64,000 bases of DNA, taken from assembly GCA_902705825.1 (NCBI GenBank), contig CACSIL010000052.1:1-64000 (forward strand). The letters are read 5' to 3'. The stretch is from Halioglobus japonicus. Its GTDB lineage: Bacteria; Pseudomonadota; Gammaproteobacteria; Pseudomonadales; Halieaceae. Positions 39,153-41,680 of this stretch are shown piece by piece. The notes beneath the pieces were generated by a model. It was given only the letters and a program-made list of their open reading frames with translations, had not been told where the DNA came from and searched no databases. The translations under genes were made by a program, and so were the position numbers. The first letter of the stretch is position 1, and every line of letters begins with the position of its first letter.

Positions 39153-40019
39153 ATGTCCGTTATTCTAGTTACCGGCAGCAGCACTGGCATAGGCCAGGAA
39201 ACCGCCCTGCACATGGCGCGCAAGGGTCACGACGTATACGCCGCAGTGCGCAGTCCGGATACCGCCATTGAACTGAAGGAAAAGATCGCCGAGGAAAATC
39301 TATCCGTCACCGTGATACGACTGGATCTGGTAGACCCAACGTCCATCAAGACTGCAGTGGCAGAGATCATGGAGCGCAGCGGTCGCATCGACGCGCTGGT
39401 CAACAACGCGGGCATCGGCGGCGGGCGAGCCGTTGAGGAGACCTCTCTCGAGGAAGCGCGTGAAATATTTGAGACCAATTACTTCGGCAATGTCAGCGTG
39501 CTGCTTGAAGTCACACCCATCATGCGCAAACAGAACTCAGGCAGAATCGTCACTGTCGGCTCACTGGCCGGCCGTGTGGTGATGGGCTGCCACGCCCACT
39601 ACTCCGCCTCCAAATGGGCTATGGAGGGCCTCAGCGAAGCGCTGGCGCAGGAAATGGCCGAGTTCAACGTCAAGGTCGCCATCATTGAACCGGGCTGTGT
39701 GCTCACGCCCATCTGGGAGAAGGGTTCACTGCCCACTGAGCCCTCTCCGTACATCAACTCTCTGCAGCGCCTGGGACGGTTCTTTGAGTTTGGACTGGGC
39801 CGACCAGCCATGCCCACTGACGTGGCCGGCGCCATCGAGCACGCAATAGAGTCAGACAAGCCACACTTCAGATACCCGGTCGGGCCGGATGCCGAGGAAA
39901 CCATCGCCGCTCGCGCCAAAGTCACTGACGACGAGTGGCTTGAGGCCAATTGCCTGCAGGGTGAGGCATTTTATGATCGCTGGAAGGCATTGGTGGGCGT
40001 TGATTACTATCGCGAGTAA
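39153..40019 (+). CDS. Short-chain dehydrogenase/reductase
   Basis: A 288-residue classical SDR. The coenzyme motif is VTGSSTGIGQETA; NNAGIGG and the active-site Ser/Tyr/Lys are in VTVGSLAG and YSASKWAMEGLSEAL. It oxidises an alcohol or reduces a ketone with NAD(P). GAGAGAGG precedes the ATG. It is the last plus-strand gene before the repeat array. Confidence 0.9.
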   Translation: MSVILVTGSSTGIGQETALHMARKGHDVYAAVRSPDTAIELKEKIAEENLSVTVIRLDLVDPTSIKTAVAEIMERSGRIDALVNNAGIGGGRAVEETSLEEAREIFETNYFGNVSVLLEVTPIMRKQNSGRIVTVGSLAGRVVMGCHAHYSASKWAMEGLSEALAQEMAEFNVKVAIIEPGCVLTPIWEKGSLPTEPSPYINSLQRLGRFFEFGLGRPAMPTDVAGAIEHAIESDKPHFRYPVGPDAEETIAARAKVTDDEWLEANCLQGEAFYDRWKALVGVDYYRE

Positions 40020-40063
40020 CACTTGGCGTTGTGACGCCGGAAAAACCAGGATCTGTTAACACT

Positions 40064-40632
40064 CGGGCCTGTCTCGCGCAAAGACGACTCGCAACGACCG
40101 ATGTGCGGGATATGCGACAGGTCGGGTGTACCTCCGTGTCCCTGGTTTTTCGGTGAATCGCAGTGGTTCGACGGTGAGCTGTCCCGCACTCGTCCAGTTT
40201 GCTCAACTGAAACGGCCATTCGCCACTGAACGAGTGCGGGACAACTCACCTCACACCGTGTAATTTCCGATAGTAGTTTTGGCTTTGGCGTTCTCTGATT
40301 CTAGTCTTTGCGCGAGACAGGTCCGGGCGCGAATATCTCAGCCTTCTGAGCGACCGGGCCTGTCTCGCGCAAAGACGACTCGCAACGACCGATGTGCGGG
40401 ACAGCTCACCTCACATCGTGTAATTGCCGATAGTAGTTTTGGCTTTGGCGCTCTCAGATTCGAGTCTTTGCGGGAGACAGGTCCGGGCGCGAATATCTCA
40501 GCCTTCTGAGCGACCGGGCCTGTCTCGCGCAAAGACGACTCGCAACGACCAATGTGCGGTATATGCGACAGGTCGGGTGTACCTCCGTCACCCTGGTTCT
40601 TCGGTGAATCGTAGTGGTTCGACGGCAAGCTG
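40064..40632. repeat. Repeat array with alternating inverted arms
   Basis: A 118-bp sequence is present at 40064-40181 and 40515-40632 (about 93 percent identical, offset 451). Between them is a 160-bp unit in tandem at 40241-40400 and 40401-40560. An 18-base arm CCTGTCTCGCGCAAAGAC occurs on alternating strands at 40068, 40304 (inverted), 40359, 40464 (inverted) and 40519, so RNA from either strand would form long hairpins. A small hairpin CTCAG-CCTT-CTGAG lies in the loop. It fills the space between convergent SDR and alcohol dehydrogenase genes. No transposase or coding signal was seen. Confidence 0.85.
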
Positions 40633-40645
40633 GCCTACTGCTGCG

Positions 40646-41680
40646 CTAATCCATCCGTGCCAAAACCTTGCATTGATGGCTGGGGGTACGCAGCGCCTCG
40701 AATGCGTCGGGCATTTCGTCGAGGCTGACAATGTCTGTCACCATGGGTGAAACATCGATGCGCCCCTCCCCCAGCATCGCCACACAGGTATCAAAATCAT
40801 CGCGTGTATAGGCGATAGCAAACTGGATCTGTAACTCCTTCACCAGTCCAAAGAAGGGCATGATGCTGTCCGGTTGCTCACACACGCCAACCGGGATAAT
40901 CCTGCCACCATACGGCGCCATTTCGATACATTGCTGCAACAAACCCGGCGCGCCAACACATTCAAAAATGACATCAGGCGCACCACCGGCAACGTCTGAA
41001 AATTGTTGCAACAACCCCTCGGCCCCCTTCGACAGGTCCGGGTGAATCACTGCGGTGGCGCCCATCTTTTTCGCGAGATCTGCACGCGTGGTGGCAACCT
41101 CACTGACGACCACATCTCTAGCGCCAAAGAAACGGCACCACAGCGCCACCGTCAGACCGATAGGCCCGGCGCCGATCACCAGAATGCGGCTGCCCGCCTT
41201 GACGTTGCCAACGCGCACCGCATGTATTCCCACTGCCAGTGGTTCCACCAGTGCAGCGCTTTGCATATCGAGGGTGTCGGGTAATAAAATTGTTTCACGA
41301 CACCCAGTGGTTACAAACTCGGCGAAGCCTCCCTGGTCATCTACCCCGGATACCTTTTTCTCAGCACACTCGAAGAAACGCCCGGCGGCACACGGCAGGC
41401 AGTGACCACAGGCGATGAAAGGCATCGCACAGACGCGGTCGCCGACCTGCCAGTCCCCCGCCGCTTCTTTGCCGACCTCGACAATTTCACCCACATACTC
41501 GTGACCGAGGATCTGGCCGCAGCAGGCCGTGGTCAAACCCTCGCGGGTGGCGTGCAGATCCGTGCCGCAAATGCCGCAGAAACTGACCTTCATCACCAGT
41601 TCTGTGGACTCCGGCACCGGGTCTGCCACGGTTTCTACTGCCAGTGGCTGACCCACCTCTTTAAACACGGCCGCTTTCAT
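40646..41680 (-). CDS. Zinc-dependent alcohol dehydrogenase (MDR family)
   Basis: A 344-residue medium-chain dehydrogenase. Catalytic zinc ligands: Cys in CGICGTDLH and His-Glu in GHEYVG. Structural zinc ligands: CGHCLPCAAGRFFEC (four Cys pattern). The NAD motif is VIGAGPIGLTVALW. It is close to threonine/sorbitol/butanediol dehydrogenases; substrate unknown. It lies 38 bases downstream of the GST gene on the same strand and is probably cotranscribed with it. Its 3' end faces the repeat array. Confidence 0.88.
   Translation of the reverse strand: MKAAVFKEVGQPLAVETVADPVPESTELVMKVSFCGICGTDLHATREGLTTACCGQILGHEYVGEIVEVGKEAAGDWQVGDRVCAMPFIACGHCLPCAAGRFFECAEKKVSGVDDQGGFAEFVTTGCRETILLPDTLDMQSAALVEPLAVGIHAVRVGNVKAGSRILVIGAGPIGLTVALWCRFFGARDVVVSEVATTRADLAKKMGATAVIHPDLSKGAEGLLQQFSDVAGGAPDVIFECVGAPGLLQQCIEMAPYGGRIIPVGVCEQPDSIMPFFGLVKELQIQFAIAYTRDDFDTCVAMLGEGRIDVSPMVTDIVSLDEMPDAFEALRTPSHQCKVLARMD

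Follow-up and report, generated by a model that had tools for sequence, protein, structure and literature searches.

The repeat array in the 64,000-nucleotide stretch analysed here (the window) is probably one place where a dispersed mobile hairpin, non-autonomous and of a REP/REPIN-like kind, has been amplified into a local cluster; the hairpin would be recognized as a folded single strand. The initial annotation had offered three explanations, namely a bidirectional terminator, a source of paired antisense RNA and a non-autonomous mobile repeat that spread by duplication; the last is the best supported, on account of the dispersal of the hairpin and of a discrete element with hairpin ends. 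In one variant, the copies stop at the hairpins and lie in unrelated flanks.

Anatomy of the repeat array

The array spans about 40064-40645, between converging genes for a short-chain dehydrogenase (SDR) and a zinc alcohol dehydrogenase (ADH) (Table 1). A repeat scan recovers its direct repeats, eight inverted pairs and the five alternations of an 18-bp arm, CCTGTCTCGCGCAAAGAC, at 40068 (+), 40304 (-), 40359 (+), 40464 (-, one mismatch) and 40519 (+), and the array is therefore real. The convergent flanks and the two inner 160-bp copies described initially are borne out as well (Tandem Repeats Finder reports 40234-40559 with a period of 160), and the outer copies are present at the expected identity but measure 121 bp instead of 118 bp. 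From left to right, the array consists of a T1 right-arm remnant, a T2 hairpin, a T1 hairpin, a T2 arm fragment, a second T1 hairpin and the second outer-spacer copy; hence, the 160-bp unit comprises a T1 hairpin, its spacer and a T2 fragment. Neither the two hairpin types (T1 and T2) nor the dispersal of the family had been noted in the initial annotation.

Table 1. Features of the array and its flanks, in window coordinates
Feature	Position	Strand	Basis or remark
Whole array	40064-40635	.	direct and inverted repeat scan
First outer direct copy	40064-40184		121 nt, 93% identity between copies
Second outer direct copy	40515-40635		121 nt, 93% identity between copies
First inner tandem unit	40234-40393		160 nt, 95% identity between units
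Second inner tandem unit	40394-40553		160 nt, 95% identity between units
T1 hairpin right-arm remnant, without left arm or tip	40064-40085	+	inverted pair I6, arm positions; left end of array
T2 hairpin, 26-nt arms, tip core GCGAATGGCCGTTTCAGTTGAGC on - strand	40173-40250	-	fold z -10.9 (RNA), -9.1 (DNA)
T2 tip core	40201-40223	-	core also present in G120 and G127
First T1 hairpin, 25-nt arms	40304-40376	+	R1 match 40307-40373, 78.6 bits; RNA fold z -9.0
T1 tip core GCGAATATCTCAGCCTTCTGAGC of first hairpin	40329-40351	+	tip pattern search
T2 arm fragment inside 160-bp unit	40394-40410	+	pair I8, 17 nt, 100% complementary to 40173-40189
Second T1 hairpin, one more stem mismatch	40464-40536	+	R1 match 40467-40533, 74.9 bits; RNA fold z -8.5
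T1 tip core of second hairpin	40489-40511	+	tip pattern search
Flanking gene, short-chain dehydrogenase (outside element)	39153-40019	+	PF00106, 7e-53
Flanking gene, zinc alcohol dehydrogenase (outside element)	40646-41680	-	PF08240 and PF00107

A scan of the whole window at a threshold of at least 15 for both arm and score, below which the second T1 hairpin scores, returned two hairpins, both in the array, as against zero in 20 Markov-1 simulated windows. With these simulations empty and the reversed-pattern controls (see below) at background, a chance origin of the array hairpins is rejected. The RNA folds of hairpins of this family are very stable, with z between -8.2 and -10.9.

The 25.4-kb segment between two inverted arrays (window 40220-64000, continuing to position 65584 of contig C52) occurs twice in the assembly: a 26-kb contig, C19, repeats C52:40220-65584 at 99.96% identity, and both of its ends are array sequence. 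The second C52 array, related and in reverse orientation, lies at 65.5-65.8 kb, past the end of the window and on the far side of a stretch of Ns. This repeat may be a true duplication, a strain or inversion variant, or an assembly product. C19 contains four T1 cores spaced 160 bp apart, versus two at the corresponding place in the window. Hence, the earlier caveat that misassembly might have collapsed or expanded the array holds for its copy number in its own assembly, which is uncertain, but not for its units, which recur in relatives. In the related genome G116 (L249-L267 and other loci), 23 of the 29 model matches are found no more than 600 bp from a contig end, which makes it probable that long arrays break that assembly.

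A dispersed hairpin family

Searching for the T1 tip with up to three mismatches yields 15 sites in the array's own assembly (G000; other G numbers denote related genomes) and none with a reversed-pattern control. Seven of the 15 lie on the duplicate contig C19 (six plus one array copy), and the number of independent copies is accordingly lower. Across 18 genomes of the genus, the tip search gives 16 matches in G000, 28 in G116, 27 in G123, 19 in G126 and 8 in G127, while the remaining 13 have 0-3, which is the level of the reversed control (0-3, with the maximum of 3 in G129). T2 tips are found in three of the 18.

A covariance model, R1, built from 21 hairpins and applied with strict filters on the matches, extends this distribution to 11 of 140 genomes of the family, in five of its 28 genera. 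The own assembly has 15 matches, and there are 29 in G116, 2 in G120, 36 in G123, 28 in G126, 7 in G127, 8 each in G030, G033 and G114, 2 in G044 and 1 in G047. The array is thus not unique, the count having given 1-36 matches in each of ten relatives. Among 390 genomes sampled from the order, R1 matches only G000 and G030, both of the same family. From 162 model matches, 152 were kept after exclusion of eight opposite-strand shadows and two short partial matches; 120 of the 152 are 67 nt long and 105 of these are distinct. The hairpin occurs as a single copy, as an opposite-tip pair and as a tandem array.

Several other identities were considered and rejected. The window has no Rfam hits, and those overlapping hairpins at twelve loci are to microRNA models, far under thresholds; a tRNA search rejects a tRNA identity for the array. 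A phage, plasmid or viral origin is likewise rejected, as the exact tip pattern is absent from viral contigs and blastn with the array finds no match in plasmids or phages. An exact tip match in a Coriobacteriales contig has unpaired arms and was taken as chance. A search of the open-access literature found no paper on such a hairpin family.

A conserved tip on a freely varying stem

The tip conforms to the frame G-N-GA-N...N'-GA-N'-C, over 18-23 nt. When only the tip sequence was searched for, with no demand for pairing (although the pattern itself favours C2 and G22), all 84 distinct copies in hairpin-bearing genomes had paired arms, compared with 0 of 12 chance matches in other congeners. 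Among these 84, pair 5:19 is A-T in 23, G-C in 58 and unpaired in 3; pair 1:23 is G-C in 67, C-G in 11 and otherwise in 6; and pair 2:22 is C-G in 72, T-A in 6, T-G in 5 and otherwise in 1. Within the distinct model matches, G3:A21 is kept in 104/105 and A4:G20 in 103/105. The same frame recurs in further tip types, namely T2, a 19-20-nt form, a GGGAGTC...CGACC form in G116 and both ends of the G114 element described below, one of which has C5-G19. A search with the frame returned 81 distinct forward matches versus 4 in reversed sequences, where overlapping loci were counted. From these letters, a tandem sheared G.A motif is predicted for the tip, whose closing pairs covary. The mini hairpin that had been seen in the loop is indeed the minimum-energy fold predicted for the window copy, as RNA and as DNA; however, it is rejected as a conserved fold, given that over 21 aligned copies its covariation equals the shuffled level and that, of its five pairs, one is broken in 11 copies. 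A second conserved hairpin tip (CGTGTGGCGACAGGACGTCGCCAC...GGATGTGCG.TTTTTGGCG) is seen in G127 on long locus-specific stems, at L055 5039-5171, L044 1151-1268 and L115 5632-5745, the first two of which have no Rfam match.

The stem, of 14-39 bp, varies in sequence between loci, yet is about 92-99% Watson-Crick paired. Of the 1995 outer stem pairs in the 105 distinct copies, 1830 (92%) are Watson-Crick, as are 680 of 722 (94%) in 38 representatives of the stem clusters, between which the mean identity is 0.38 in the arm and 0.81 in the core. In 21 copies, chosen for paired arms and paired tips, double changes occur at 24 of 25 pairs, with a covariation score of 0.934 versus 0.231 for shuffled columns; for 135 distinct rows, fitted to the model, the score is 0.935 versus 0.216 when shuffled and at most 0.148 with a slid partner. 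The 27 distinct dispersed copies of G126 show 2208 double and 143 single-side differences, and 507 of 513 pairs are kept at an arm distance of 0.342 and a core distance of 0.108. Inspected by eye, these copies have a short leader in common 5' of the foot, with a terminus close to AAAT or GAAT; 3' of the hairpin, no clear shared sequence is apparent. In G116 and G123, many copies have stems in common, and larger duplication therefore also drives spread.

The conservation of the tip, together with a stem that changes in matched pairs, suggests that the folded single strand is read by some cellular factor. It is very improbable that the units are instead relics, moved long ago or as passengers of duplications, with arms kept perfect by template switching alone and nothing to read them. 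Template switching does homogenize arms, as described in PMC8794818 and PMC8604942, and ongoing duplication is evident from the tandem arrays and from the 25-kb segment present twice; but the tip is kept while the arms diverge, as in the G126 distances above, and the GA/GA letters are invariant in 103-104 of 105 copies.

A discrete element and hairpin-bearing gaps

In G114, all eight model matches are the right or left ends of an element of 587-793 bp, with one hairpin per end and oppositely oriented tips in 8/8 copies. Similarity between the copies ends at the hairpin feet, the distance being 0.559 in the left flank (49 columns) and 0.159 in the spacer (428 gap-free columns, and hence a low estimate). 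The stem distances, 0.304 and 0.206, exceed that of the spacer, while 198/208 and 188/200 pairs are Watson-Crick; double changes number 196 and 108, as compared with means of 111 (maximum 168) and 55 (maximum 102) when the 3' arm is shuffled. The spacer (L189-L191, L268-L272) has more inverted segments and a central part that is wholly different between copies.

A near-empty site is seen in the rpe-trpE gap, which measures 20 bp in G121 versus 385 bp with a hairpin pair in G127, a difference of about 365 bp between species about 80-89% alike at the DNA level. In G128 (L219), the gap that bears the pair in G127 contains two more long hairpins, whose tips are different. At the SDR-ADH position, a hairpin lies within 900 bp in three of the 17 SDR-bearing genomes, namely G000, G126, whose stem is its own, and G120, whose tip is 20 nt long. 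The notion that arrays border special gene cassettes was rejected, the DNA between arrays in G123 and G030 containing, on inspection, ordinary-looking long ORFs.

Strand asymmetry and gene context

G.T is more frequent than A.C on the core strand, by 86 to 16 over all 105 copies (which are not independent), by 19 to 5 in the 38 representatives (p 0.007) and by 44 to 15 when distinct events are counted across 28 stem clusters (p 2e-4). Sorted by the upstream gene, the ratio is 40:6 with the core strand sense and 28:9 with it antisense for all copies, and 16:0 and 14:6, respectively, for cluster representatives (difference p 0.024; antisense alone p 0.12). That the excess is stronger with the core strand sense favours some RNA-level selection. 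One strand is so the working one, mostly regardless of transcription, with an RNA part possible; strand-biased deamination could be an alternative source of the excess.

Gene context could be assigned for 59 of the 105 sites, those flanked within 1.2 kb by an ORF of 120 aa or longer on each side (mechanical and uncurated ORFs; 46 sites unused). These gaps are tandem in 37 cases, convergent in 17 and divergent in 5, versus 123, 32 and 49, respectively, of 204 hairpin-free control gaps from the same loci; hairpins are thus depleted in divergent gaps (p 0.0097) and in excess in convergent ones (p 0.035). The 14 two-hairpin sites comprise 12 of (-,+), one of (+,-) and one of (++) orientation, and single hairpins in tandem gaps are equally sense (13) and antisense (13).

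These data bear on the possibility that the hairpin is an RNA element, i.e., a tail-less bidirectional terminator or 3'-end stabilizer whose tandem G.A tip is read by a protein and whose copies spread because they are useful. This is conceivable but not likely. It would agree with the location behind genes and the scarcity in divergent gaps, with the highly stable RNA folds, with a G.T excess that is strongest in the sense orientation, and with the different hairpins that G000, G126 and G120 have in the orthologous SDR-ADH gap. However, the same gap is hairpin-free in 14 of the 17 SDR-bearing genomes, sense and antisense hairpins balance in tandem gaps, and single-side changes are rare in G126 (143 versus 2208), whereas selection on RNA would leave many G.U intermediates. 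Further, the T-run that follows the G+C-rich stem of an intrinsic terminator (scored as 5 of 8) is found after 0/112 hairpins on the core strand and 12/112 on the other, and a terminator scan of 39900-40800 places no site in the array. The bidirectional terminator proposed initially is thereby weakened for intrinsic forms, as distinct from Rho-dependent or tail-less ones.

It appears improbable that the hairpin serves as a site in duplex DNA, whether by cruciform extrusion or by binding a nucleoid protein or gyrase. Such roles have been proposed for some BIMEs, and the long perfect inverted repeats, the (-,+) pairs and arrays and the intergenic location would be in keeping with one. Yet a duplex-binding protein would keep letters and not pairing, while here the closing pairs of the tip covary, and a cruciform treats both strands alike, which is at odds with the 44-to-15 excess of G.T over A.C.

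Comparison with known mobile hairpins

Like the GTAG REPs, REPINs and BIMEs as characterized in PMC8266576, PMC3733652 and PMC2817692, the hairpins are strand-specific extragenic palindromes that occur singly, in opposite-oriented pairs and in clusters, mainly in tandem and convergent gaps; their placement, extragenic, behind genes and in predominantly (-,+) pairs, is of the REP/REPIN type. They differ in their stems, of 14-39 bp as opposed to the 5-13 bp reported for GTAG families, and in that the conserved part is the tip and not the stem plus tag. GTAG lies within 12 nt of the foot, on either side, in 0/112 hairpins, and CTAC on the 3' side in 1/112 (GTGG was uncounted). No hairpin of this kind lies beside a Y1_Tnp locus (0/11 and 0/7) within flanks of about 1.5 kb or up to the contig end. 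Lacking both the GTAG tag and a copy beside any of these 18 Y1 loci, the family is not filed as a member of the REP-RAYT group.

Y1 transposases (PF01797) are encoded by 33 of the 140 family genomes, 8 of the 11 with hairpins versus 25 of the 129 others (p 0.0004); among genomes of at least 3.7 Mb, the figures are 8/11 and 22/42 (p 0.31). Hence, the family-wide link vanishes after matching for genome size, and the Y1 transposase, which is absent from the hairpin-bearing G126, G127 and G047, is not favoured as partner. G030 (L292 1060-2039) has, close to a Y1 gene, hairpins of another sort with the ending GTAGGAGCGGCT / GTAGGAGCGGCTACAGCCGCGA; these resemble ordinary GTAG REPs, and they coexist in this genome with tip-conserved hairpins.

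Being dispersed palindromes without a dedicated transposase, the hairpins are also like the CGTC REPs, as portrayed in PMC3733652. Unlike in those, 4/112 have CGTC in the 12 nt that precede the foot and 2/112 have GACG on the 3' side, and the stems of 14-39 bp contrast with reported stems of 8-9 bp and loops of 4-5 bp. As the defining features tested for GTAG and CGTC REPs are wanting, the family is filed as neither.

With the ends of IS200/IS605 elements, the hairpins have in common a subterminal position, a putative reading as single strands and, in G126, the short 5' leader before the foot; here, however, the tips at the two ends are oppositely oriented. No transposase gene was found inside the units looked at. 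The G114 element is like a MITE in being short and non-autonomous with inverted ends, but whereas MITE ends are conserved in sequence, the tip and foot alone are conserved here, and a hairpin makes up each end. Integron attC sites, which recombine as folded single strands, have conserved feet and a variable tip; the present arrangement is the reverse. In sum, the hairpins form a real family that is REP-like yet conserved at the tip and probably works as REPs and REPINs do; the window array is one amplified cluster of it.

Mechanistic and biological implications

According to PMC8266576, PMC3733652 and PMC2817692, TnpA-REP acts on folded single strands and contacts the loop or irregularities of the stem, and in the Marinomonas system a swapped stem is only moderately harmful. 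Such behaviour, as depicted in PMC8266576, could serve by analogy as a model for how the tip might be read, but is not evidence of membership. In the mobile-hairpin reading that we prefer, a single-strand-acting enzyme would recognize the folded core-strand tip, comprising the tandem G.A motif and loop; with the folded tip being what is recognized, the stem sequence would be free provided that its arms pair. The arms might be kept matched largely by the copying of one from the other through template switching in replication. Insertion would be tolerated mainly downstream of genes, and tandem arrays, including that in the window, may go back to a T2(-)/T1(+) pair that was duplicated. The influence on adjacent genes is probably secondary.

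A further idea, which we regard as rather unlikely, is that of a self-templating hairpin, i.e., tip-read mobile DNA whose stem is rewritten by fold-back copying at each replication or move. Such a stem would always be perfect, fast-drifting and wholly replaceable (as the G126 copy L243 might illustrate), with the tip and foot kept. REPs conserve stem and tag, and to our knowledge self-templating spread has not been described for them.

At a practical level, hairpin arrays of this kind probably disrupt assemblies. The approximately 15-to-1 preponderance of double over single changes constitutes a natural data set on the upkeep of perfect palindromes, and the combination of a conserved tip with a nearly free stem separates what a hairpin-reading enzyme would need from what must merely pair.
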